NCBI GenBank assembly: GCA_036493475.1
Contig: DASXPS010000046.1
Coordinates: 1 to 64,000 of the forward strand
Source of the DNA: Sporichthyaceae bacterium
GTDB lineage: Bacteria; Actinomycetota; Actinomycetes; Sporichthyales; Sporichthyaceae
Direction: 5' to 3'
Length of the DNA: 64,000 nt
This document shows, piece after piece, positions 134 through 39,589 of the stretch. The position numbers and the translations under genes are program-made. The stretch's first letter is position 1. Each line of letters opens with the position of its first letter. Under the pieces are notes generated by a model. The model saw only the letters and a program-made list of their open reading frames with translations, made no database searches and was not told the origin of the DNA.

Positions 134-1813
134 ATGGCGACCACCGCTGCCGCACCCGCTCGCGCCGCCAAGCACAAGGGGCAGGGCCAGTGGGCGTTGA
201 ACCACCGTGAGCCGCTCAACGCCAACGAGCAGGTGAAGAAGGACGACGACCCGCTGAACGTGCGGGCACGGATCATCGACCGGTACGCCCACACCGGGTT
301 CTCCTCGATCGACGGTGCCGACCTGCGCGGCCGATTCCGCTGGATGGGCCTGTACACCCAGCGCAAGCCCGGCATCGACGGCGGCAAGACCGCGATCCTC
401 GAGCCGAACGAGCTCGACGACGAGTACTTCATGATGCGCATCCGGCTCGACGGCGGGCAGCTGTCCGGCGAGCAACTGCGCGCCATCGCCGAGGTCTCCG
501 CCGCGTACGCCCGGGACACCTGCGATGTGACGGACCGCCAGAACTTCCAACTGCACTGGGTGCGCATCGAGGACGTGCCGGCCATCTGGGCGCGCCTGGA
601 AGCGGTCGGGCTGACCACCATGGAGGCCTGCGGTGACTGCCCCCGGGTGATCCTGGGCAGCCCGGTGGCCGGCATCGCCGCGGACGAGATCATCGACGGC
701 ACCCCGGCGCTGGAGGAGATCACCCGCCGCTGGATCGGCTCACCGGAGTTCTCCAATTTGCCGCGCAAGTTCAAGTCGGCGATCTCCGGCTCACCGAAGA
801 TGGACGTCGCACACGAGATCAACGACGTGTCCTTCGTCGGGGTGGTGCACCCCGAGCACGGCCCGGGCTTCGACCTGTGGGTCGGCGGCGGGCTGTCCAC
901 CAACCCGATGCTGGCCCAACGGGTCGGCGCGTGGGTGCCGCTGGACGAGGTGCCCGAGGTGTGGGCCGGGGTGATCTCGGTGTTCCGCGACTACGGCTAC
1001 CGCCGGCTGCGCAACCGGGCCCGGCTGAAGTTCCTGGTCGCCGACTGGGGAATCGAGAAGTTCCGCGAGGTGCTCCAGACCGAGTACCTGCACCGGGCGC
1101 TGATCGACGGCCCCGCCCCGGTCGAGCCGCCCGCGGGGTTCCGGGACCACATCGGCGTACACCCGCAGCGGGACGGCAACTTCTACGTGGGCTTCGCCCC
1201 GCTGGTCGGCCGCATCTCCGGCACGCTGCTGAACAAGGTCGCCGACCTGGCCGAGGAGCACGGCAGCGGCCGGATGCGTACCACCGCCGAGCAGAAGCTG
1301 CTCATCCTCGACGTGCCCGCCGCGCAGACCGAATCGCTGGTGGCCGCGCTGGAGTCGCTGGACCTGCAGGTGCGCCCGACCCCGTTCCGTCGCCAGACCA
1401 TGGCCTGCACCGGCATCGAGTTCTGCAAGCTGGCCATCGTGGACACCAAGAACCGGTCCATCCGGCTGATTGCGGAGATGGAACGGCGGCTGCCGGGCTT
1501 CGACGTGCCGCTCACCGTGAACATGAACGGCTGTCCGAACGCGTGCGCCCGTTTCCAGGTCGCCGACATCGGCCTGAAGGGCATGCTGGTGAACGACGCG
1601 ACCGGCAACAGCGTCGAGGGTTACCAGGTGCACCTGGGCGGCAGCCTCGGCATCGCGGCGGGCTTCGGTCGCAAGGTGCGCGGGCTGAAGGTGACCTCCG
1701 CCGACCTCGAGGACTACATCGAGCGGGTGCTGCGCCGGTTCCTGGCGCAGCGTCAGGGCGAGGAGACCTTCGCCGCCTGGACCGGGCGCGCCGACGAGGC
1801 CGATCTGTCATGA
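134..1813 (+). CDS. sir: Ferredoxin-dependent assimilatory sulfite reductase
   Basis: A 559-aa siroheme/[4Fe-4S] enzyme of the sulfite/nitrite reductase family that reduces sulfite to sulfide with six electrons from ferredoxin in the cytoplasm. The cluster and siroheme ligands are visible as CTGIEFC (Cys425, Cys431) and NGCPNAC (Cys467, Cys471). The length fits the actinobacterial SirA/NirA group. The start is fixed by GAGGAA just upstream. Its TGA overlaps the ATG of the next small gene, and APS reductase and APS kinase follow without gaps; this context supports sulfite rather than nitrite as substrate. The siroheme cofactor could come from CysG (47373-48578) plus the chelatase-like gene at 3235. 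Confidence 0.95.
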   Translation: MATTAAAPARAAKHKGQGQWALNHREPLNANEQVKKDDDPLNVRARIIDRYAHTGFSSIDGADLRGRFRWMGLYTQRKPGIDGGKTAILEPNELDDEYFMMRIRLDGGQLSGEQLRAIAEVSAAYARDTCDVTDRQNFQLHWVRIEDVPAIWARLEAVGLTTMEACGDCPRVILGSPVAGIAADEIIDGTPALEEITRRWIGSPEFSNLPRKFKSAISGSPKMDVAHEINDVSFVGVVHPEHGPGFDLWVGGGLSTNPMLAQRVGAWVPLDEVPEVWAGVISVFRDYGYRRLRNRARLKFLVADWGIEKFREVLQTEYLHRALIDGPAPVEPPAGFRDHIGVHPQRDGNFYVGFAPLVGRISGTLLNKVADLAEEHGSGRMRTTAEQKLLILDVPAAQTESLVAALESLDLQVRPTPFRRQTMACTGIEFCKLAIVDTKNRSIRLIAEMERRLPGFDVPLTVNMNGCPNACARFQVADIGLKGMLVNDATGNSVEGYQVHLGGSLGIAAGFGRKVRGLKVTSADLEDYIERVLRRFLAQRQGEETFAAWTGRADEADLS

Positions 1814-1953
1814 CCGAAAGGGCTGCACCTTTTCACTGCCCCTACTGCGCGGAAGAGGATTTGCGGCCACTGGAGCAGCACGGACAGTGGCTGTGCGGAA
1901 GTTGTCGGCGTGCGTTCGCGTTGCGGTTTCTCGGAATGGAGGTGTCGGTATGA
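1810..1953 (+). CDS. Small four-cysteine (zinc-ribbon-like) protein of the sulfate operon
   Basis: A 47-aa protein. It contains two CxxC pairs (CPYC near residue 10, CGSC near residue 32), the spacing of a minimal zinc ribbon or rubredoxin-like knuckle. The gene overlaps sir by ATGA at its 5' end and cysH by 4 nt (ATG of cysH at 1950) at its 3' end, so it is translationally coupled to both. From memory, small proteins occupy the same slot between sulfite reductase and CysH in Streptomyces. No function is established; metal binding or a role in iron-sulfur handling is inference from the cysteines. Confidence 0.75.
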   Translation: MTERAAPFHCPYCAEEDLRPLEQHGQWLCGSCRRAFALRFLGMEVSV

Positions 1954-2699
1954 CGGCGATCGTCGAACTCGGTCGGGCATCCGGCGCGCCGAGGCGCAAG
2001 CGGGACACCCACCTGGCCGAGGGCACCGAGGCACTGGCGGTGCGCGCGGGCCGTGAATTGGAGGACGCCTCGGCGCTGGAGATTCTCTCCTGGGCCGCGG
2101 ATACCTTCGGTGATCGGCTGGCGGTGACCTCGTCGATGGCCGACGCGGTGGTCGCGCACCTGGCATCGAGGGTGAAGCCCGGAATTGACGTGCTGTTCCT
2201 GGACACCGGCTACCACTTCGCGGAGACCATCGGCACCCGCGACGCGGTGTCCGCGGTCTACGACGTCAACGTCATCAACGTGACCCCGACGCTCTCGGTC
2301 GCCGGTCAGGACGTGGCGTTCGGCAAGGACCTGTTCGGCCGCGATCCGGACCGCTGCTGCGCGTTGCGCAAGGTGGCCCCGTTGAACGCGGCGATGCGCG
2401 ACTACGACGCGTGGATCACCGGGCTGCGCCGCGACGAGACCCCGTCGCGGGCGGACACCCCGGTGGTGTCCTGGGATGCCGGCCGCGGCAAGGTGAAGGT
2501 CTGCCCGATTGCCAGGTGGACCCAGACCGACGTGGATGCCTACGTGGCCGAACACAACATCCTGCTCAACCCGCTGCTGTTGGACGGCTACGACTCGATC
2601 GGCTGCCGGCCCTGCACCCGGCGCACCGTCACCGGGGAGGACGCCCGGTCCGGCCGTTGGGCGGGCAGCGGCAAGACCGAATGCGGGCTGCACAGCTGA
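1950..2699 (+). CDS. cysH: Assimilatory APS reductase (CysH family, [4Fe-4S] type)
   Basis: A 249-aa reductase that converts adenylyl sulfate to sulfite and AMP with thioredoxin. Cys136-Cys137 and Cys219/Cys222 (CRPC) form the CC...CxxC cluster signature that separates APS reductases from cluster-free PAPS reductases. The C-terminal ECGLH motif carries the catalytic Cys245. The ATG at 1950 overlaps the preceding gene's stop. An in-frame upstream ATG at 1887 lies inside that gene and would add a tail without family resemblance. The TGA overlaps the ATG of cysC. Confidence 0.93.
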   Translation: MTAIVELGRASGAPRRKRDTHLAEGTEALAVRAGRELEDASALEILSWAADTFGDRLAVTSSMADAVVAHLASRVKPGIDVLFLDTGYHFAETIGTRDAVSAVYDVNVINVTPTLSVAGQDVAFGKDLFGRDPDRCCALRKVAPLNAAMRDYDAWITGLRRDETPSRADTPVVSWDAGRGKVKVCPIARWTQTDVDAYVAEHNILLNPLLLDGYDSIGCRPCTRRTVTGEDARSGRWAGSGKTECGLHS

Positions 2700-3238
2700 T
2701 GGGCCGTCAGGGGGTGACGATCTGGCTGACCGGCCTGCCCAGCGCCGGTAAGTCGACGATCGCGGGGGCGCTGGCCGAGCGGTTGCGCGCGACCGGCCGA
2801 CAGGTGCACATCCTGGACGGTGACGAACTGCGCACCGAGCTGACCGCGGACCTCGGGTTCTCCAAGGAGGACCGGATCACCAACGTGCGCCGCATCGGCT
2901 TCGTCGCCGCAACGCTGTCCCGCAACGGCGTCACCACGTTGGTGCCGGTGATCGCGCCCTACGCCGAGGCCCGCGATCACGTGCGCGCTCGGCACGAGGC
3001 GACCGGCACCCCGTACGTCGAGGTGCACATCGCCACGCCGGTCGAGGAGTGCGCGGCCCGCGACGTGAAGGGCCTGTACGCCAAGCAGCGCGCCGGGGAA
3101 CTCGTCGGGCTGACCGGTGTGGACGACCCGTACGAGGTCCCCGTCGCCCCCGACCTACGGCTGGACACCGCCGGGCGCAGCCTGGACGAGACCGTGGCGG
3201 CTGTGCTCGCCGCGCTGGCCGAACGAGGGTTGGCGTGA
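2699..3238 (+). CDS. cysC: Adenylyl-sulfate (APS) kinase
   Basis: A 179-aa kinase that phosphorylates APS to PAPS. The P-loop GLPSAGKST lies near the N-terminus, followed by a DGDELR substrate motif. Family-typical FSKEDR and NVRRIG segments follow. It starts on the cysH stop codon (ATGA). Because the adjacent CysH is an APS reductase, this kinase is not needed for reduction and probably supplies PAPS for sulfotransfer or competes at the APS branch point; this is inference. No cysD/cysN (sulfurylase) lies in the window. Confidence 0.92.
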   Translation: MGRQGVTIWLTGLPSAGKSTIAGALAERLRATGRQVHILDGDELRTELTADLGFSKEDRITNVRRIGFVAATLSRNGVTTLVPVIAPYAEARDHVRARHEATGTPYVEVHIATPVEECAARDVKGLYAKQRAGELVGLTGVDDPYEVPVAPDLRLDTAGRSLDETVAAVLAALAERGLA

Positions 3239-3990
3239 GTCCGCCCGCGCTGCTGCTGATCGCGCACGGCAGCGGCGACCCGCGGCACGCGGCGACCATG
3301 ACCACACTCACGCGCCGGCTGCGCCGGGTGCTGCCCGAGGTGCCCGTGGGCATCGGGTACCTGGACCATCACGGTCCCGACGTGGCCGACGCCGCCCGGG
3401 CGCTAAAAGAGGCCTCACTCGCTGACGCTCGCGGGGGGGGCCGCCGGGTGCGGGCCGTCCCGATGCTGCTGAGCGATGCCTTCCACCACAAGGTCGACAT
3501 CCCAGCCGCGGTGGCCAAGGCCCGCGCCGAGGGCATGCTGATCGACACGACGGAGGCCCTCGGGCCCGATCCGCGCCTGCTGGCCGCGGTCGCCGAACGG
3601 CTGCGTGCGGTCGGTGCCCGACCGGGGCCGGGCACCGGGCTGGTGTTGGCCTACGCGGGCACCACCGATGCCGCGGCGGCGGGGGCCGTCCGGCGGCTGG
3701 CTGCGTGGTGGCAGCGCCGTAGCGGGACCGAGGTGCGGGTCGCGCACGCGGCGACCACCGGGCCCGGTATGACCGAGGTGGTCGCGGAGTTGCGCGCGGC
3801 GGGCGCCGGTCGGGTCGACGTCGCGCCGTGGTTCCTGGCGCCGGGTCGGCTGCTGGACCGGGTGCAGATTACGGCCCGTGCGGCCGGTGCGGACAGCGTC
3901 GCCGCGCCGCTGGGCGACGCCCGAGCCGTGGTCGAGGCCGTGCTGCGCCGCTACGCCACCCTCGTCGTCGAGGCCCGGCCCGCCGCCTGA
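3235..3990 (+). CDS. Sirohydrochlorin chelatase-like protein (SirB/CbiX family)
   Basis: A 251-aa protein with the family N-terminal LLIAHGSGDPRH, whose His is the metal-binding residue in CbiX/SirB, and a second related half. Members insert Fe2+ or Co2+ into sirohydrochlorin; position after sir-cysH-cysC favours siroheme iron insertion. The GTG at 3235 overlaps the cysC stop (GTGA). Residues near 60-70 contain an odd SLADARGGG stretch. It is encoded by a repeat-like segment (3412-3436) ending in a G8 run; the frame is intact across it and family sequence (LLSDAFHHKVD) resumes directly after. Confidence 0.85.
   Translation: MSPPALLLIAHGSGDPRHAATMTTLTRRLRRVLPEVPVGIGYLDHHGPDVADAARALKEASLADARGGGRRVRAVPMLLSDAFHHKVDIPAAVAKARAEGMLIDTTEALGPDPRLLAAVAERLRAVGARPGPGTGLVLAYAGTTDAAAAGAVRRLAAWWQRRSGTEVRVAHAATTGPGMTEVVAELRAAGAGRVDVAPWFLAPGRLLDRVQITARAAGADSVAAPLGDARAVVEAVLRRYATLVVEARPAA
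3412..3436. repeat. Short repeat inserted in frame in the chelatase-like gene
   Basis: The segment contains CTCGCTGACGCTC next to a G8 tract. The reverse complement of the repeat at 45429-45453 contains nearly the same core (CTCGCTGCGCTC). Here it sits inside coding sequence without breaking the frame. Confidence 0.5.
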
Positions 3991-5609: not shown

Positions 5610-7784
5610 ATGCGACAGGATGACGCCTCGGCGGCCGAAGCACCGGCCGGCCGCACGGGGCAACGAGGGGCCACCGACCACCAGGAGGCCGCGATCACCG
5701 TCTGGCCGGGCACGCCGTACCCGCTGGGCGCCACCTACGACGGCGCGGGCACCAACTTCGCCCTGTTCTCCGAGGTAGCCGAGCGCGTGGAGCTGTGTCT
5801 GCTGGACGTCCGCGGCCGGGAAACCCGGGTGGTGCTGCCCGAGGTGGACGCCTTCGTGCACCACGCATACCTGCCGGGCGTCGAGCCGGGCCAGCGTTAT
5901 GGCTACCGGGTGCACGGGCCCTACGACCCGGCGCACGGTCACCGCTGTAACCGCAACAAACTCCTGGTCGATCCGTACGCGAAAGCGGTCGATGGCCAGA
6001 TCAGCTGGAATGAGGCGCTGTACAGCTATCGGTTCAACGCGCAGAACCGCCGCAATGACCAGAACAGCGCCCGCTACACGATGCACTCGGTGGTCGCGAA
6101 CCCGTACTTCGACTGGGGCGATGACCGCCACCCGCACATCCCCTACCACCGCACGGTGATCTACGAGGCGCACGTACGCGGGCTGACCATCAACCACCCG
6201 GACATCCCGAAGAACATCCGCGGCACCTACGCCGGTCTCGCCCACCCGGTGATGATCGAGCATCTGCAGAGCTTGGGGGTGACCGCGGTCGAGCTGATGC
6301 CGGTACACCAGTTCGTGCACGACCATCCGCTGGCCGATCGGGGGCTGCGCAATTACTGGGGATACAACTCCATCGCCTACTTCGCCCCGCACAACGGCTA
6401 CGCCTCGCAGGCCCACGGCGGCCGACAGGTGCAGGAGTTCCGCGCCATGGTCAAGGCGCTGCACCGGGCGGGCATCGAGGTGATCCTGGACGTGGTCTAC
6501 AACCACACCGCGGAGGGCAACCACCTCGGCCCGACGTTGAGCTTCCGCGGCATCGACAACGCGGCGTACTACCGCCTCGGCGACGACCTGCGCTACTACT
6601 ACGACACCACCGGCACCGGCAACACGCTGGCCATGCATCACCCGCACGTGCTGCAGCTGATCATGGACTCGCTGCGCTACTGGGTGCTGGAGATGCACGT
6701 CGACGGTTTCCGCTTCGACCTCGCGGCCACGTTGGCCCGGCAGTTCCACGAGGTGGACCGACTCTCCGCGTTCTTCGACCTGGTGCACCAGGACCCGGTG
6801 GTGTCCCAGGTGAAGTTGATCGCCGAGCCCTGGGACGTCGGCGAGGGCGGCTACCAGGTGGGCAACTTCCCGCCGTTGTGGACGGAGTGGAACGGCAAGT
6901 ACCGGGACACCGTGCGCGACTTCTGGCGCAGCGAACCGGACTCGCTGCCCGAGTTCGCGTCCCGGTTGACCGGGTCCTCCGACCTCTATCAGGACGACGG
7001 CCGCCGCCCGCACGCCTCGATCAACTTCGTCACCGCGCACGACGGTTTCACGATCCGGGACCTGGTCTCCTACAACGACAAGCACAACGAGGCCAACGGC
7101 GAGGAGAACCGGGACGGGGAGAGCCACAACCGTTCCTGGAACTGCGGGGCGGAGGGCGAGACTTCCGACGCCGAGGTGCTCGCCCGTCGGGCCCGCCAGC
7201 AACGCAACTTCCTCGCCACCCTGTTCCTCTCCCAGGGCGTGCCGATGTTGCTGCACGGCGACGAACTCGGCCGCACGCAACGTGGCAATAACAACGCCTA
7301 CTGCCAGGACAACGACATCTCCTGGGTGGACTGGTCGGCGGTGGACGCCGATCTGCTGGCGTTCACCCGCGCCTGCGGCAAGCTGCGGGCGGCGCATCCG
7401 CTGCTGCGCCGCCGTCGGTTCTTCTCCGGCGCCCCGGTGCACGGGTCGCTGCCGGACATCGCCTGGTTCACCCCGGCGGCCGCCCCGATGAGCGAGCAGG
7501 ACTGGTCGGCGGGGTTCAACAAGTCGGTGGCGGTGTTCCTCAACGGCGCGGCGATCACCGAACCGAACATCCGCGGCGAGCGCATCGTCGACGACTCGTT
7601 CTACCTGCTGCTGAACGGACATGAGGGCCCGTTGGACTTCGTGCTGCCCGCCGAGGAGTACGGTCGGAATTGGGCGGTGGTATTGGACACCGCGAAACCG
7701 GAGGTGACCGGCCGGGCGACGTTGGCCGCAAGCGAGAAGGTGGGCATGCTCGACCGGTCGTTGCTGGTGCTGCGCCGGTGCTGA
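5610..7784 (+). CDS. glgX: Glycogen debranching enzyme GlgX/TreX (GH13)
   Basis: A 724-aa isoamylase-type debranching enzyme that hydrolyses alpha-1,6 branch points to release linear malto-oligosaccharides for TreY. An N-terminal CBM48-like domain (PLGATYDGAGTNFALFS) is followed by the GH13 barrel with DVVYNHT, DGFRFDLA (nucleophile Asp), LIAEPWD (acid/base Glu) and VTAHDGF. The length fits the family. The start is uncertain: ATG 5610 lacks a good ribosome site, and recognisable homology begins about 30 residues later. The stop overlaps the GTG of treY. Confidence 0.93.
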   Translation: MRQDDASAAEAPAGRTGQRGATDHQEAAITVWPGTPYPLGATYDGAGTNFALFSEVAERVELCLLDVRGRETRVVLPEVDAFVHHAYLPGVEPGQRYGYRVHGPYDPAHGHRCNRNKLLVDPYAKAVDGQISWNEALYSYRFNAQNRRNDQNSARYTMHSVVANPYFDWGDDRHPHIPYHRTVIYEAHVRGLTINHPDIPKNIRGTYAGLAHPVMIEHLQSLGVTAVELMPVHQFVHDHPLADRGLRNYWGYNSIAYFAPHNGYASQAHGGRQVQEFRAMVKALHRAGIEVILDVVYNHTAEGNHLGPTLSFRGIDNAAYYRLGDDLRYYYDTTGTGNTLAMHHPHVLQLIMDSLRYWVLEMHVDGFRFDLAATLARQFHEVDRLSAFFDLVHQDPVVSQVKLIAEPWDVGEGGYQVGNFPPLWTEWNGKYRDTVRDFWRSEPDSLPEFASRLTGSSDLYQDDGRRPHASINFVTAHDGFTIRDLVSYNDKHNEANGEENRDGESHNRSWNCGAEGETSDAEVLARRARQQRNFLATLFLSQGVPMLLHGDELGRTQRGNNNAYCQDNDISWVDWSAVDADLLAFTRACGKLRAAHPLLRRRRFFSGAPVHGSLPDIAWFTPAAAPMSEQDWSAGFNKSVAVFLNGAAITEPNIRGERIVDDSFYLLLNGHEGPLDFVLPAEEYGRNWAVVLDTAKPEVTGRATLAASEKVGMLDRSLLVLRRC

Positions 7785-10180
7785 CCATCCCAACCATCCC
7801 AACTGCCACCTACCGCCTGCAACTGACCGCAGAGTTCGGCTTCGCCGACGCCGGCGCGGTGCTCGATTACCTGGCCGCACTGGGCATCAGCCACCTGTAC
7901 CTGTCCCCGGTGCTGGCGGCGGTACCCGGCTCCACGCATGGATACGACGTGGTCGACCACGACACGTTGTCCACCGAACTCGGCGGTGCCGAGGCGTTCC
8001 ACGCGTTGGCCAAGGCGGCACGCGAGCGCGGCCTGGGCATCGTGGTGGACATCGTGCCCAATCACATGGCGGTGCCCACTCCGGAATCGCTTAACGCGCC
8101 ACTGTGGTCGGTGCTGCGCGACGGCCCGGCCTCGCCGTATGCCAACTGGTTCGACGTGGACTGGACGGTGCCCGACCGGGCCATGCTGATGCCGTTCCTC
8201 GGTCGGCGCATCGGCGAGTGCCTGGACGCCGGGGACATCGTGCTGGACACCGCCGGGGACGAGCCGGTGGTGCGCTACTTCGACCACGTCGTGCCGGTGC
8301 GACCGGGCACCGAACACCTACCGTTGGAGCAGCTGCTCGACCGCCAGTGGTACCGCCTGGCCTACTGGCGGGTGGCCGACGAGGAACTGAACTATCGACG
8401 CTTCTTCGACATCGACACCCTGGCCGCGCTGCGGGTGGAGAACGCCGATGTGTTCGCCCAGTCGCACTACCTGATCGGCGCCCTGGTCCGCGAGGGCCAC
8501 ATCGCCGGGCTGCGGGTGGACCACCCGGACGGGCTGGCCGACCCGGTGGAATACCTGACGCGACTTCAGAACCTCACCGGGGGCTGCTGGGTGGTGGTGG
8601 AGAAGATCCTCACCGGAGCCGAACTGCTGCCCGACGATTGGCCGTGCGCGGGCACCACCGGCTACGACGCGTTGCGCCGGGTCGGTGGGCTGTTCGTGGA
8701 CCCCGACGGCTTCGCGGAACTGGTCGAGTTGAACTCCCAATTCACCGGCGAGGACATCGAATTCACCGGCGTGGCCGCGGCGGCGAAGTGGCAGATCGTC
8801 ACCACCAGCCTGTGGGCCGAGGTGGTCCGCCTGGGCGGGCTGGCCGCGGAGATCTGCCACGACAACCTGCGGTTGCGCGACCACACCCGCCGCGGTCTGG
8901 AGGAGGCGATCACCGAACTGTTGATCGGCTGCGAGGTGTACCGCACCTACGTGGTGCCCGGCCACCCCGCGCCGGACGGGGCGGTCGCCGTCCTCGACTC
9001 CGCCGCCGCGGTGGCGAAGTCCCGGCTGCCCGAGGAGCGTCACGACACCGTCGACCTGATCCGCGAGTTCGCGTTGTACGCCCCGCCGGGTGACCGGCGT
9101 CGGCACGAGTTCGTGGTGCGTTTCCAACAGACCTCCGGCCCGGTGATGGCCAAGGGCGTGGAGGACACCGCGTTCTACAGATGGTTCCCGCTCAGCTCGG
9201 CCAATGAGGTCGGCGGGGAACCCGACTCCCCCGTGGTGGACCCGGCGACGTTCCACTCCTACGCCGCTGCCATGTGCCGCTCCTGGCCGGCGGCGATGAC
9301 CACGCTGTCCACCCACGACACCAAGCGCGGGGAGGACGTGCGGGCCCGACTGGCGGTGCTCGCCGAGCTACCCGAATCCTGGGCGCGCGCGGTCGAGGGT
9401 TGGCAGCGCGCCGCAGCGGGGTATCACAGCGCCGCCGGGCCGGACCCGGCCACCGAGTACCTGATTTGGCAGACTCTGGTCGGGGCCTGGCCGTTGGCCG
9501 CGGACCGGCTGGTGGAGTACCTGCACAAAGCGACCCGCGAGGCGAAGCTGCACACCTCGTGGACCGCGCCGGACATCGCATACGACGAGGCGGTAGAGCG
9601 GTTCGCCCGGGCCGTGCTGGACAATGCCCGACTGGTCGCCGACATCACGGAGTTCGTCGAGGAACTCGGGCCGGCCGCTCGCGTGGTGACGCTGAGTCAG
9701 AAGCTGGTGCAGCTCACCATGCCGGGGGTGCCGGACGTCTACCAGGGCACCGAGTTCGCCACGTTCACCCTGGTCGATCCGGACAACCGCCACCCGGTGG
9801 ACTTCGCCGCCCGCCGGGCGCGGTTGGCCGCGCTGGACGAGGGCGAATCGCCGCGTGATCTCCACGACGAGAAACTGCTGGTCACCTCGCGGGCGCTGGC
9901 GGTGCGCAAGGACCACCCGGAGGCCTTCGCGGGCGACTACCGGGAACTGTCCGCAACGTCGCAGCACGCCTTCGGCTTCGTGCGCGGCACTGACGTGATC
10001 TCCGTGGTCACCCGACTGCCCCGCGGCCTGTTCGGGGCCGGCGGCTGGCGCGAGCACACCGTGGATCTGCCGTCCGGGGCGTGGCTGGACGTACTGACCA
10101 ACCGTCAGTACGCCAGCGGCCCACACGCCGCTGCGAAACTCTTCGACCCGTATCCGGTGGCGCTGCTCGTGCGCGCCTAA
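7778..10180 (+). CDS. treY: Maltooligosyl trehalose synthase
   Basis: An 800-aa GH13 enzyme. It rearranges the reducing-end alpha-1,4 bond of maltodextrins to an alpha,alpha-1,1 bond. The N-terminus PTATYRLQL, NHMAVPTPE, GLRVDHPDG, VVEKIL and STHDTKRGEDVRAR are hallmark motifs. GTG at 7778 was chosen because it overlaps the glgX stop (GTGCTGA) and places PTATYRLQL seven residues in, as is usual. Coupling to glgX makes a two-gene unit; treZ follows 1.4 kb downstream beyond an opposing protease gene. Its TAA overlaps that protease's stop by 4 bp. Confidence 0.95.
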   Translation: MLTIPTIPTATYRLQLTAEFGFADAGAVLDYLAALGISHLYLSPVLAAVPGSTHGYDVVDHDTLSTELGGAEAFHALAKAARERGLGIVVDIVPNHMAVPTPESLNAPLWSVLRDGPASPYANWFDVDWTVPDRAMLMPFLGRRIGECLDAGDIVLDTAGDEPVVRYFDHVVPVRPGTEHLPLEQLLDRQWYRLAYWRVADEELNYRRFFDIDTLAALRVENADVFAQSHYLIGALVREGHIAGLRVDHPDGLADPVEYLTRLQNLTGGCWVVVEKILTGAELLPDDWPCAGTTGYDALRRVGGLFVDPDGFAELVELNSQFTGEDIEFTGVAAAAKWQIVTTSLWAEVVRLGGLAAEICHDNLRLRDHTRRGLEEAITELLIGCEVYRTYVVPGHPAPDGAVAVLDSAAAVAKSRLPEERHDTVDLIREFALYAPPGDRRRHEFVVRFQQTSGPVMAKGVEDTAFYRWFPLSSANEVGGEPDSPVVDPATFHSYAAAMCRSWPAAMTTLSTHDTKRGEDVRARLAVLAELPESWARAVEGWQRAAAGYHSAAGPDPATEYLIWQTLVGAWPLAADRLVEYLHKATREAKLHTSWTAPDIAYDEAVERFARAVLDNARLVADITEFVEELGPAARVVTLSQKLVQLTMPGVPDVYQGTEFATFTLVDPDNRHPVDFAARRARLAALDEGESPRDLHDEKLLVTSRALAVRKDHPEAFAGDYRELSATSQHAFGFVRGTDVISVVTRLPRGLFGAGGWREHTVDLPSGAWLDVLTNRQYASGPHAAAKLFDPYPVALLVRA

Positions 10181-36158: not shown

Positions 36159-36216
36159 GATCACTTGCAACGGTGGGGAATGCGCCTCCCCGCCCGAGAA
36201 GCGGAGGCTCATCGTG
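36159..36216 (+). promoter_or_regulatory. Conserved leader, copy 1, before RCC1-repeat gene 1
   Basis: This 58-nt leader, running into the GTG start, is nearly identical to 37639-37697 before the second paralogue (four substitutions and one insertion). It contains GATCAC-TGCAACGG, a small GGGGA/TCCCC hairpin and the GCGGAGG ribosome site. Conservation beyond the ribosome site suggests either a recent duplication or a shared 5'-UTR control element. Confidence 0.5.
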
Positions 36217-37593
36217 AACGGACGTCGACTGCGGAACGTGGCTCTGATCTGCGGGGCGGGTGCCACTGTGCTGATCGCGGGCACCAGCGCCTCGGCCAAT
36301 CCCAACGACACCGAGCCGGTCAACAGCGTGTGCGCCGCCGCGCCGAGCTTGTGCGATGACCTCAAGGGTCCGCCAGGGCCCGCGGGTGACAACGGTCCGC
36401 AGGGAGCGGTTGGCCCCGCCGGCGACCAGGGAGACCCGGGGATCCCCGGACCAGCCGGTCCGGCCGGTCCGGCGGGCAGTGGCCCCGGCCGCGGCGAGAT
36501 CCGCTCCGGTGCCGCGCACAGCTGCGCGTTGACGCCCGCGGGCGCCGTGCTCTGCTGGGGTGACAACAGCTTCGGTCAACTGGGCGATGGCAGCACCGTG
36601 CCCAGCTCGTCCACCCCGGTGCCGGTGACCGGCCTGGAGTCCGGGGTCATGTGGCTGAGCGTGGGTTCCTACCACGCCTGCGCGGTGACCACCGCGGGCG
36701 CGGTCCTCTGCTGGGGAGAGAACAACGTCGGCCAACTGGGCGATGGCAGCACGACCAACTCGGCAACCCCGGTGCCCGTGTCGTCGTTGAGCTCGGACGT
36801 GACCTCGGTTTCCGCGGGCTACGGACACACCTGCGCATTGACCACCACCGGCGGGGTGCTCTGCTGGGGCGACGACACCTACGGCCAGTTGGGTGACAGC
36901 AACACCAAGGGCCAGACCACTCCGGTCGGGGTCACCAACCTCACCGCCGGGATAGCGAGCATCTCCGCAGGCTTCGCGCACACCTGCGCGGTCAGCACCT
37001 CCGGCGCGGCAATGTGTTGGGGCCTGAACATCGCGGGCCAGCTCGGCACCGGCAGCACGGACAAGACGCCGAACTCGACCCCGCAGGCGGTCTCCGCCCT
37101 GAGCACCGGGGTGATGTCGATCAGCGCCGGCTATGCGCACACCTGCGCGGTGACCCAGTCCGGAGCCGCAATGTGCTGGGGCCTCAACGCGGCCGGACAG
37201 CTCGGCAGCCTGCCCACCGACACCACCGTGCCCAACAAGGTCAGTGGCCTGGCCCAGGTCGCCTCGATCAGCGCCGGCTACCTGCACACCTGCGCGGTGA
37301 CCCAGTCCGGCGCCGCAATGTGCTGGGGTTTCAACGGCAAGGGTCAGCTGGGCAGTGGCAGCAAGAAGGAGGCGTCCGCCAAGCCGATGCGGGTGAGCGG
37401 GTTGCACTCCGGGGTGGTCTCGATCAGCGCGGCCGAGGTCGGCAACGACCTGAAGAACAACGGCATGCACACCTGCGCGATCACCGCCGCGGGCGGCGCG
37501 GAGTGCTGGGGCAACAACGCCGACGGGGCGCTGGGCGAGGGCACCACCGCCAACAAGGACAAGCCGGTCATGGTTTCGAACTACCGGCACTGA
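36214..37593 (+). CDS. Secreted collagen-like / RCC1-repeat protein 1
   Basis: A 459-aa protein. A signal peptide (LICGAGATVLIAGTSASA) is followed by a short mature N-terminus with two Cys, a collagen-like Gly-x-y stretch of about 35 residues (GPPGPAGDN... to GPAGPAG) and seven repeats of RCC1/ATS1 type. Each repeat carries HTCA-x-T and (L/M)CWG-x-N-x-x-GQLG. Seven repeats fit one seven-bladed propeller. The paired cysteines in each repeat are unusual for RCC1 and may form disulfides outside the cell. GCGGAGG precedes GTG 36214. Function is unknown; a surface-binding role is inference. Confidence 0.85.
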   Translation: MNGRRLRNVALICGAGATVLIAGTSASANPNDTEPVNSVCAAAPSLCDDLKGPPGPAGDNGPQGAVGPAGDQGDPGIPGPAGPAGPAGSGPGRGEIRSGAAHSCALTPAGAVLCWGDNSFGQLGDGSTVPSSSTPVPVTGLESGVMWLSVGSYHACAVTTAGAVLCWGENNVGQLGDGSTTNSATPVPVSSLSSDVTSVSAGYGHTCALTTTGGVLCWGDDTYGQLGDSNTKGQTTPVGVTNLTAGIASISAGFAHTCAVSTSGAAMCWGLNIAGQLGTGSTDKTPNSTPQAVSALSTGVMSISAGYAHTCAVTQSGAAMCWGLNAAGQLGSLPTDTTVPNKVSGLAQVASISAGYLHTCAVTQSGAAMCWGFNGKGQLGSGSKKEASAKPMRVSGLHSGVVSISAAEVGNDLKNNGMHTCAITAAGGAECWGNNADGALGEGTTANKDKPVMVSNYRH

Positions 37594-37607
37594 TCAGACG
37601 GCTCACT

Positions 37608-37622
37608 CTGACCCCACGTCAG
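37608..37622. repeat. CTGAC-CCCAC-GTCAG inverted repeat
   Basis: A 5-bp-arm member of the CTGACG/CGTCAG palindrome family lying between the two RCC1-repeat genes, 14 bp after the first stop codon. Confidence 0.5.
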
Positions 37623-37638
37623 GTTCGTTGTTACCGGA

Positions 37639-37697
37639 GATCACCTGCAACGGGGGGGAATGTGCCTCCCCGCCCGAGCAAGCGGAGGCCCATCGTG
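37639..37697 (+). promoter_or_regulatory. Conserved leader, copy 2, before RCC1-repeat gene 2
   Basis: The second copy of the leader described at 36159. It retains the same GATCAC start, G-run, CCTCCCCGCCCGAG block and GGAGG ribosome site ending at GTG 37695. The only length change is one extra C before AAGCGGAGG. Confidence 0.5.
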
Positions 37698-39137
37698 AAC
37701 CGACGTCGACTGCGCAACATGGCCGTGATCAGCGCGGTGGGTACGGCCGTGCTGTTTGCCGGCACCCCCAGCGCCTCCGCCAACCCCAATGACACCCAGC
37801 TGCTGGGGCCGATCTGCAGCATTCTGCCCGCGCTCTGCGACGTCCTTCGCGGCCCGGCCGGACCGGCAGGCCCCGCCGGACCCGCCGGACCCGCAGGGCC
37901 CGCAGGATCCGCAGGACCCGCAGGATCCGCAGGACCCGCAGGACCCGCAGGACCCGCAGGGTCGGCCGGGCCTGCAGGACAGACAGGGCCGGCCGGACCC
38001 GCGGGGCCGGTTGGTCCCGGTGTGGTGCGGCCCGCGATCAGTGCCGGGGCGCAGCACACGTGCGCATTGACCCCGACCGGGGGCGTGCTGTGCTGGGGTG
38101 ACAACACCTTCGGCCAGCTGGGCAACGGCACCACCACGAAGTCCTCCACGCCGGTGCCGGTGACCGGCCTGGCCTCGGGCGTGGTCGCGATCAGCGCCGG
38201 TTCGTACCACACCTGCGCCGTGACCACAGCCGGGGCTGTGCGGTGCTGGGGCCTGGACAACATCGGTCAACTCGGTGACGGCGTCAAAGGCACTTTCGTC
38301 ACCACTGCGGTCAGTGTGCCCACGGTGCCCTCGGCTGTCTCGATCAGCGCCGGACTCGGGCACACGTGCGCGGTCACCGCGGATGGCGCGGCCTGGTGCT
38401 GGGGCGCCGACAACGACGGCCAGCTCGGCAACGGCTCGACCAGCACCGGCGCAATCGGGCCAACCAAGGTGGCGGGGATCCCGTCCGGCGTCGCGAGCAT
38501 TTCCGCCGGCGGCGTACACACCTGTGCGGTGACCCGCACGGGCGCGGCGCAGTGCTGGGGCCTGAACAACTCAGGCCAACTCGGCAACGGCACCAGTGAC
38601 CCCTCGATTCCCGTTCTCGCGCCGGTCTCGGTCACCGGGTTGAGCAGCGGGGTGTCGATGATCAGCGCGGGGTATGCGCACACCTGTGCCGTGACCACGA
38701 CGGGTGCCGTGCTGTGCTGGGGTTACAACGCCTTCGGCCAGGTCGGCACCACGGCCGCGGGCACCACCGCTCCCGTCGTGGTCGCCGGACTGAACGGCGT
38801 TCCCATGGCCACCGTCTCGGCCGGTTACCTCCACACCTGCGGGGTCAGCCAGGCGGGCACGGCGGCGTGCTGGGGATACAACGGGAAGGGTCAGCTCGGC
38901 AACAACACCATCACCACGTCGGCCGCCCCGGTCGCGGTGATCGGAATGGCCGCGGGGGTGCTCGCCATCAGCGCGGCCGACGTCGGCACCGACCTGGTCA
39001 ACAACGGCCTGTTCAGCTGTGCGATCACCTCGACCGGCGGCGCGGAGTGCTGGGGCAGCAATGCCGACGGCCAGCTGGGTGACGGCACCACCACCGACGA
39101 GCACAAGCCCGTGATGTCGCTGAACTACCAGCACTGA
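37695..39137 (+). CDS. Secreted collagen-like / RCC1-repeat protein 2
   Basis: A 480-aa paralogue of the preceding gene. It has a signal peptide (MAVISAVGTAVLFAGTPSASA), two Cys, a longer collagen-like region of about 57 residues made of GPAGPAG and GSAGPAG units, then seven RCC1-type repeats (LCWGDNTFGQLGNG and variants). The last repeat in both proteins ends ECWG-x-NADG-x-LG followed by a short KPVM tail. GTG 37695 has GGAGG 8 nt upstream. The gene is 101 bp downstream of its paralogue. Cell-surface location is inferred from the signal peptide and collagen-like stalk. Confidence 0.85.
   Translation: MNRRRLRNMAVISAVGTAVLFAGTPSASANPNDTQLLGPICSILPALCDVLRGPAGPAGPAGPAGPAGPAGSAGPAGSAGPAGPAGPAGSAGPAGQTGPAGPAGPVGPGVVRPAISAGAQHTCALTPTGGVLCWGDNTFGQLGNGTTTKSSTPVPVTGLASGVVAISAGSYHTCAVTTAGAVRCWGLDNIGQLGDGVKGTFVTTAVSVPTVPSAVSISAGLGHTCAVTADGAAWCWGADNDGQLGNGSTSTGAIGPTKVAGIPSGVASISAGGVHTCAVTRTGAAQCWGLNNSGQLGNGTSDPSIPVLAPVSVTGLSSGVSMISAGYAHTCAVTTTGAVLCWGYNAFGQVGTTAAGTTAPVVVAGLNGVPMATVSAGYLHTCGVSQAGTAACWGYNGKGQLGNNTITTSAAPVAVIGMAAGVLAISAADVGTDLVNNGLFSCAITSTGGAECWGSNADGQLGDGTTTDEHKPVMSLNYQH
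37855..38015 (+). repeat. Tandem 9-nt coding repeats of the collagen-like stalk
   Basis: Repeats of GGACCCGCA and variants such as GGATCCGCA encode Gly-Pro-Ala and Gly-Ser-Ala triplets. The units are multiples of three, so copy-number change by slippage would lengthen or shorten the stalk without frameshift. Confidence 0.75.
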
Positions 39138-39147
39138 TCACGCCGGC

Positions 39148-39195
39148 TCAGCTCCGCGACCACACGCTCAACGCGTAACCACCGTCGAACGGCGC
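39148..39195 (-). pseudogene. Fragment of a methyltransferase gene 3' end
   Basis: The minus strand encodes APFDGGYALSVWSRS followed by TGA. The intact methyltransferase at 39597-40157 ends APFDGGYALSVWERT. Only this 3' tail survives, so it is a duplication remnant. It directly abuts the next fragment. Confidence 0.75.
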
Positions 39196-39250
39196 GGGCA
39201 CCACCGCCAACAAGGACAAGCCCGTAATGGTTTCGAACTATCGGCACTGA
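39192..39250 (+). pseudogene. Fragment of an RCC1-repeat gene 3' end
   Basis: The last roughly 58 bases match the end of RCC1-repeat gene 1 (37536-37593) with only a few differences, encoding GTTANKDKPVMVSNYRH and a TGA. No upstream part of the gene is present. It appears to be the remains of a third copy or a conversion/recombination scar. Confidence 0.75.
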
Positions 39251-39274
39251 TCTGACGCCCAGTAGCTTCTGGGC

Positions 39275-39589
39275 ATGACCGGAGCCCTTGACTACGACGC
39301 CTTGCGGGCCCGCGCCCGCGCCACTTGGTCCGCCGGGGACTTCGCCGCCGTCGGCACCATGCTCCCGATCGTCAGCGAGACGCGCGTGGTGATGCCGTCG
39401 GTGGACTTCTGGTCGGACTTCTTCCGCACCTACTTCGGTCCGACGATCAAGGCCTTCGAGGTGGTCGGCGCGGACGGCGCTGCCGCGCTGGAGGCCGACC
39501 TGAAGGCCTTCGCGAACCGGAACAACAAATCCCGGGACGGAACGCTGGTGCTGCCCCAGGACTACGTGGACATTCTCATCCGGTTCTGA
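39275..39589 (+). CDS. Internally deleted SAM methyltransferase (mini-gene or remnant)
   Basis: A 104-aa protein. Residues 6-36 (DYDALRARARATWSAGDFA...IVSE) match the N-terminus, and residues 42-104 (VDFWSDFFRTYFGPTIKAFE, then ALEADLKAF and GTLVLPQDYVDI) match the C-terminus of a common actinobacterial class I methyltransferase of about 270 residues. The SAM-binding Rossmann core between them is absent. The junction is in frame and the reading frame is clean. It cannot bind SAM as a normal family member would. Whether it is expressed is unknown. Its stop lies in a palindrome shared with the convergent methyltransferase gene. Confidence 0.72.
   Translation: MTGALDYDALRARARATWSAGDFAAVGTMLPIVSETRVVMPSVDFWSDFFRTYFGPTIKAFEVVGADGAAALEADLKAFANRNNKSRDGTLVLPQDYVDILIRF

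Follow-up and report, generated by a model that had tools for sequence, protein, structure and literature searches.

The seven-bladed propeller is a common binding fold in bacteria, and the characterised relatives of the RCC1-type form are known to bind proteins, not sugars; UVR8, HERC2, RPGR and RCC1, in which this form is found, are intracellular. In plants, the extracellular part of the CRINKLY4 (CR4) and ACR4 kinases is described, in the available text of one source, as seven RCC1-like crinkly repeats with the pattern C(X~10)CWG and with disulfides predicted inside each repeat (PMC4617170), and BLIP-II of Streptomyces is, in the accessible part of another, a secreted seven-bladed propeller of the RCC1/BLIP-II superfamily from soil bacteria (PMC9218822). 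Scl1, Scl2 and Lcl are secreted proteins in which a Gly-X-Y stalk is joined to a globular domain, and the accessible portion of a review states that prokaryotic collagen-like proteins form triple helices without hydroxyproline (PMC8968730).

Two adjacent genes in the window (the whole stretch of 64,000 nucleotides that was analysed, from a high-GC bacterium) bring a collagen-like stalk and an RCC1-type propeller together in single chains (Table 1). Each protein reads as a signal, a segment with two cysteines seven residues apart, a Gly-X-Y run and seven RCC1 repeats, spaced at 49-61 residues, that extend to the C-terminus; GGAGG precedes the GTG start of both genes. Read by eye, both signals are of the Sec type, with a positively charged start (RRLRN), a hydrophobic core and the junction ASA/NP. 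The preliminary description of this DNA had placed two such secreted genes in 36214-39137, and the coordinates, signals, Gly-X-Y stretch and seven repeats were confirmed; that the genes are duplicates was likewise borne out, the two proteins being 60% identical over 405 residues. It had also stated that HTCA and CWG occur in every repeat, which is correct for CWG and for the regular cysteine spacing (14/14 repeats each, with a C-to-C distance of 10 throughout), whereas the literal HTCA is present in ten of the 14 and is replaced by HSCA, HACA, HTCG and FSCA in the remaining four.

Table 1. Positions of the two genes, their predicted parts and associated features in the window.
Feature	Position	Strand	Remarks
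Gene 1, secreted collagen-like/RCC1 propeller protein, 459 aa	36214..37593	+	GTG start 36214, stop 37593
Gene 2, secreted collagen-like/RCC1 propeller protein, 480 aa	37695..39137	+	GTG start 37695, stop 39137
Predicted signal peptide, gene 1, residues 1-28	36214..36297	+	Read by eye
Predicted signal peptide, gene 2, residues 1-29	37695..37781	+	Read by eye
Gly-X-Y stalk, gene 1, 13 triplets; Cys C40 and C47 just before	36367..36483	+	
Gly-X-Y stalk, gene 2, 19 triplets; Cys C41 and C48 just before	37851..38021	+	
Seven-bladed RCC1-type propeller, gene 1, seven C-X9-CWG pairs	36496..37590	+	
Seven-bladed RCC1-type propeller, gene 2, seven C-X9-CWG pairs	38037..39134	+	
5' leader, gene 1, conserved with gene 2 leader	36159..36213	+	Alignment
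5' leader, gene 2	37639..37694	+	Alignment
Remnant of an additional copy since lost, 3' end of a CDS resembling gene 1	39192..39257	+	Alignment

The assignment of the repeat domain is far beyond chance: the Pfam RCC1-like domain (WD40_RLD) was matched at E values of 1.7e-77 in gene 1 and 1.3e-71 in gene 2 (261.6 and 242.3 bits; cut-off 150), and the Pfam RCC1 repeat at 2.5e-62 and 2.3e-54 (207.7 and 182.2 bits; cut-off 21.7), with further matches to RCC1_2. AlphaFold2 monomer models were obtained from an alignment of 26 sequences, comprising both window proteins and 24 of 26 stretches from 80 named loci, two long stretches (417 and 423 residues) having been left out. Both models contained 28 strands arranged as seven blades of four; pLDDT was mostly 90-98 for the propeller and fell below 50 in most of the signal and stalk. 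The predictions support a closed RCC1-type seven-bladed propeller in both proteins, in agreement with the fold first proposed for them, and the tandem repeats above cut-off together with seven four-stranded blades place the pair in the RCC1-like (RCC1/BLIP-II) superfamily. When the gene 1 model was compared with the PDB, the top match was UVR8 (Z 57, rmsd 1.6 over 356 residues, 31% identity), followed by HERC2, HERC1, RPGR and RCC1 (Z 44 for RCC1); BLIP-II (Z 29.4, 33% identity over 245 residues) and the CRINKLY4 ectodomains 7a0k (Z 26.6) and 7a0j (Z 26.0) ranked lower. Sequence searches agreed with these structural matches, BLIP-II being reached by profile at E 3e-17. The sequence similarity to UVR8 is family-wide, and UVR8, HERC2, RPGR and RCC1, while sharing the fold of the gene 1 model, have neither signal peptide nor stalk; BLIP-II is secreted like the pair, but its chain is shorter and stalkless, and the fold alone is held in common.

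Within the gene 1 model, the two cysteines of each repeat lie directly opposite one another across the hairpin formed by strands 2 and 3 of the same blade, in 7/7 blades. Among 998 blades of 140 distinct proteins, which were taken from all loci collected, are not independent by descent and were selected with a pattern of which the WG motif is part, 860 had both cysteines, 124 had neither, 11 had the CWG cysteine only and three the first cysteine only; 984 were thus concordant (both present or both absent), and the separation was 10 in 792 of the 860 two-cysteine blades. The 17 mixed proteins contained 14 discordant blades against 20.8 on shuffling, a number as low being reached in 3 of 10,000 shuffles. 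A first regular expression had made blades with the second cysteine only appear frequent (81/1055); a cysteine in or just before the hairpin was found in 79 of 80 distinct cases, which attributes most of them to an error of pattern register, and the blades were recounted with another pattern. Co-occurrence is support, not proof, of pairing within the blade. On the geometry of the model, we infer that one disulfide would staple each blade across its second and third strands; disulfides between blades, for which the preliminary description had proposed a check by structure prediction, were rejected in favour of intra-blade pairs on the model and the counts together.

The CRINKLY4/ACR4 ectodomain resembles both proteins in its seven extracellular repeats with C(X~10)CWG (all 14 repeats here), going by the available text of PMC4617170. 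CRINKLY4/ACR4 itself differs in having a TNFR-Cys region, a transmembrane helix and a kinase, none of which was found in the Pfam search of the pair, where the propeller is accompanied by a collagen-like stalk and nothing else. Because a signal peptide is combined with paired cysteines in every blade, the two proteins are taken to be extracellular, on the oxidising side of the membrane. The data back a simple rule, namely that a C-X9-CWG motif present in all blades identifies a propeller as extracellular and disulfide-stapled; proteins of this kind frequently carry the misleading label of regulators of chromosome condensation.

In the stalks, glycine recurs at every third position without a break, over 13 triplets in gene 1 and 19 in gene 2, and most triplets of gene 2 are GPA, encoded by a 9-base tandem repeat. 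Against a cut-off of 27.2 bits, the Pfam Collagen model scored 31.0 bits in gene 2, which passes, and 21 bits in gene 1, which does not, and the two cysteines before the stalk are equally spaced in both proteins. Scl and Lcl profiles matched the stalk weakly and the NCBIfam Scl models fell far under cut-off; a resemblance to the Gly-X-Y profiles of phage tail fibres was taken as an effect of composition. Scl1/Scl2 and Lcl carry other heads, and the Scl models are named as LPXTG-anchored, unlike the pair: by eye, neither protein has an LPXTG motif, a C-terminal transmembrane or hydrophobic stretch or a canonical lipobox, and Pfam and NCBIfam searches returned no anchor domain for either. With no anchor seen, the proteins look secreted and soluble, so that a cell-surface adhesin is not the default reading and the surface attachment proposed earlier was not upheld; adhesin or lectin activity of the propellers is possible. 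The same genome also encodes secreted collagen-like proteins whose small heads are of other types, three of them in a row on one contig (C204).

Secreted propellers with cysteine-bearing RCC1 repeats are common in bacteria. Gene 1 had matches at 1e-20 in 39 of 148 genomes (its own included), and the best 80 of 160 relatives in named genomes belonged to proteobacteria, actinobacteria, Chloroflexi, archaea and others. RCC1_2 was matched in both genomes of the genus (the window's own and the sister genome G001) and in none of three genomes of the sister genus. A third RCC1 gene of the window's own genome (G000, contig C82), missed by the preliminary description, encodes a secreted-looking propeller of this type without a stalk, and the RCC1 proteins of G001, on its contigs C82 and C103, are secreted-looking cysteine-bearing propellers as well.

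The join of a stalk to such a propeller looks rare in the sampled genomes, though both parts are known. At least eight Gly-X-Y triplets were found in 0/90 RCC1 ORFs of the named loci from the best 80 of 160 relatives (each ORF with at least four blades, and an upstream stop in view for 85), and at least six in one of the 90, a Myxococcales gene (L089) with seven triplets before its RCC1 blades. A further genome set, from which the window's genome was excluded, gave one ORF with at least eight triplets among 74, some of which are possibly one gene counted twice and many of whose loci are short; this was the G001 gene on C82, of the same genus, where a long GGX-rich stretch precedes a short Gly-X-Y run. 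A composite search with stalk plus blades found matches in 40 of 396 genomes of the phylum and 78 of 393 of the class (own genome included), and among the candidates matching into the stalk, fetched in part, no collagen run joined to RCC1 was found outside the same genus; because only a few candidates in each genome are scored by such searches, and because many of the loci are short, the rarity is an impression of the sample, not proof. Plasmid relatives amounted to 78 records, all below 60% identity and none covering 80% of the query, and a phage origin was rejected, the seven matching phage records being below 60% identity with no single place covering 80% of the query. A literature search on RCC1 with collagen-like, extracellular and adhesin themes turned up no publication seen to describe a collagen-like stalk followed by RCC1 repeats: the words RCC1 and propeller are absent from the main text of the review PMC8968730 in its accessible portion, both domain words occur only in unrelated places in the accessible portion of PMC3192720, and in two virus papers matching RCC1 and collagen repeat, RCC1 is part of strain names.

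The propeller DNA of the two copies is 72.5% identical, and dN/dS between them was 0.47 for the propeller, 0.38 for its strands and 0.55 for its loops, indicating that the copies have been under constraint. Downstream of gene 2 lies a fragment, likewise absent from the preliminary description, which is identical to the end of gene 1 at 61 of 66 aligned bases and to gene 2 at 49 of 64; at least one more copy therefore once stood here. The flanking genes encode a GDSL lipase, a nitroreductase and a methyltransferase, and a search among them for an operon or functional partner gave no ligand lead. Homologues of the lipase and methyltransferase genes lie about 0.9 kb apart on one contig of G001, and the pair is absent from this syntenic site; the gap is filled by a full-length second methyltransferase gene, with about 55 bases between that gene and the lipase, so the pair occupies what in G001 is a short divergent intergenic region. 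The window's second methyltransferase gene (39275..39589) has lost its middle. With one sister genome compared, gain of the pair in the lineage of the window is a simpler reading than loss in the sister, because the sister genus is without an RCC1_2 match. Since collagen-like proteins and a stalkless RCC1 protein occur in the same genome, the pair seems to be a fresh combination of components that the lineage was already using.

The best reading of these genes is a secreted, possibly trimeric, binding protein. Export would proceed by the Sec route with cleavage after ASA, and the mature protein would start at NPNDT and consist of the two-cysteine segment, the Gly-X-Y stalk and a closed seven-bladed propeller. 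The stalk probably joins chains as a collagen-like trimer, which would present three heads on one stem, and the two stalk-proximal cysteines perhaps lock that trimer; the heads may use their propeller faces to attach with avidity to an extracellular ligand, either a protein or part of the cell wall, the stalk giving reach, and the duplicate copy, with its changed loops and longer stalk, might serve a second ligand or variant. Taken whole, as exported, trimeric, collagen-stalked and disulfide-stapled heads binding an extracellular ligand with avidity, we hold this account to be about evenly poised between right and wrong. Against it stand the shortness of the stalks, the gene 1 score under the Collagen cut-off and the very low confidence of the monomer models in this region, as well as the lack of any visible anchor, which counts against a cell-bound adhesin, the absence of a neighbouring gene that suggests a ligand, and the stalkless state of the C82 paralogue and of almost every other RCC1 protein examined. 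A rival reading is a soluble monomer in which the Gly-X-Y stretch is a flexible or polyproline-type spacer and forms no collagen-like trimer: the stalks are short, that of gene 2 is mostly Gly-Pro-Ala, the GGX-rich stretch of the sister-genome gene suggests that any Gly-rich spacer suffices, and the C82 paralogue has no spacer at all. We consider the spacer somewhat unlikely, given that the glycine register is unbroken over both stalks, that the Collagen model is over cut-off in gene 2 and that two cysteines precede each stalk at equal spacing.

The remaining alternatives concern what the heads do. A bulk structural component of a sheath, spore coat or biofilm matrix, in place of a specific binder, would suit a genome with several collagen-like genes, and certain collagen-like proteins of bacteria are required for biofilms to form according to the accessible text of PMC4319854; purifying selection (dN/dS 0.47) together with faster-diverging loops is expected of a binding domain more than of filler, leaving this role little probability. 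A role as a secreted inhibitor, directed at a beta-lactamase, a cell-wall enzyme or some other enzyme that is secreted or lies in the periplasm, is suggested by BLIP-II, with its secretion, seven blades, shared superfamily and the structural and profile matches given above, and has slight probability at most: UVR8 and RCC1 match much more closely, and BLIP-II has no stalk and is not known to have cysteine pairs. A cytoplasmic exchange factor or regulator is extremely unlikely; it is favoured by the annotation of relatives as 'regulator of chromosome condensation', an annotation habit, and the signal peptide and the paired cysteines of every blade point outside the cell, where RCC1-type exchange-factor activity is improbable. 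Returning to the secreted binding protein, a bolder form of it is doubtful: stapled RCC1 propellers on a collagen trimer stem would be a family of lollipop-like multivalent extracellular receptors, a bacterial design counterpart of the CRINKLY4 ectodomains; a single lineage would have gained and amplified this family recently, and the 9-base repeat would let the stalk vary in length. Being small and expressible, the collagen-stalked pair would allow a test of whether such propellers act as multivalent binding heads.

Over a 62-base 5' leader, gene 1 and gene 2 agree at 55 of 61 aligned bases, which exceeds the identity of the propeller coding DNA. An indel inside the leader shifts the frame, and because it breaks the shared reading frame the leader is not conserved as protein. 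A riboswitch or other known RNA was rejected, there being no Rfam match worth keeping and the folding energies being near those of shuffled sequences (z -0.45, 0.09, -1.61 and 0.13; not clearly different). Longer folds of both leaders allow a hairpin in which GCCTCC is paired to the Shine-Dalgarno sequence GGAGGC; since the energies are not clearly better than shuffled, regulation by this hairpin is only a possibility. The leader pattern occurred twice in the genome, as against zero times in the reversed control.

The stalk of gene 2 is encoded by a tandem repeat of a 9-base unit (GGACCCGCA), which is likely a site where slippage could alter the length of the stalk. Upstream of both gene 1 and gene 2 lies a conserved 5' leader, in which a hairpin could possibly hide the ribosome-binding site; the leader pattern occurs in these two copies genome-wide, and a search of the whole genome allowing up to 3 mismatches yielded no further copies.

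Downstream of gene 2, the 104-residue methyltransferase ORF has an internal deletion: it keeps approximately the 34 N-terminal and the 70 C-terminal residues, now fused to each other, of a protein whose full-length gene is found at the equivalent position in the sister genome (L203).

Coordinates of the features described
Feature	Location	Strand	Basis
9-base tandem repeat coding the gene 2 stalk	window 37860..38002		
Conserved 5' leaders of genes 1 and 2	36159..36213, 37639..37694		
Methyltransferase ORF with internal deletion, 104 aa	39275..39589	+	comparison with sister-genome gene
Three tandem genes for secreted Gly-X-Y stalk proteins	own genome (G000) contig C204 (L135), 785..3406	-	
Sister-genome RCC1 protein	G001 contig C82 (L136), 7230..9440		
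Myxococcales RCC1 protein, lipoprotein-like	L089, 3330..5867		

The tandem trio elsewhere in the same genome encodes stalks of differing lengths, and the small C-terminal domain is related among the three proteins. The RCC1 protein of the sister genome carries a long PGRS-like, GGX-rich stretch between signal and propeller, and in the myxococcal protein a Gly-X-Y run of 7 triplets, flanked by two acidic, Cys-ended segments, lies N-terminal to the blades. Enzyme-like regions fused to RCC1 propellers were also observed: at locus L034 a single ORF, judged by eye, contains a hydrolase-like and an endonuclease/phosphatase-like region with RCC1 blades in between, and an RCC1 protein on a plasmid (NZ_CP077418.1, L239) is annotated as a cutinase family protein.
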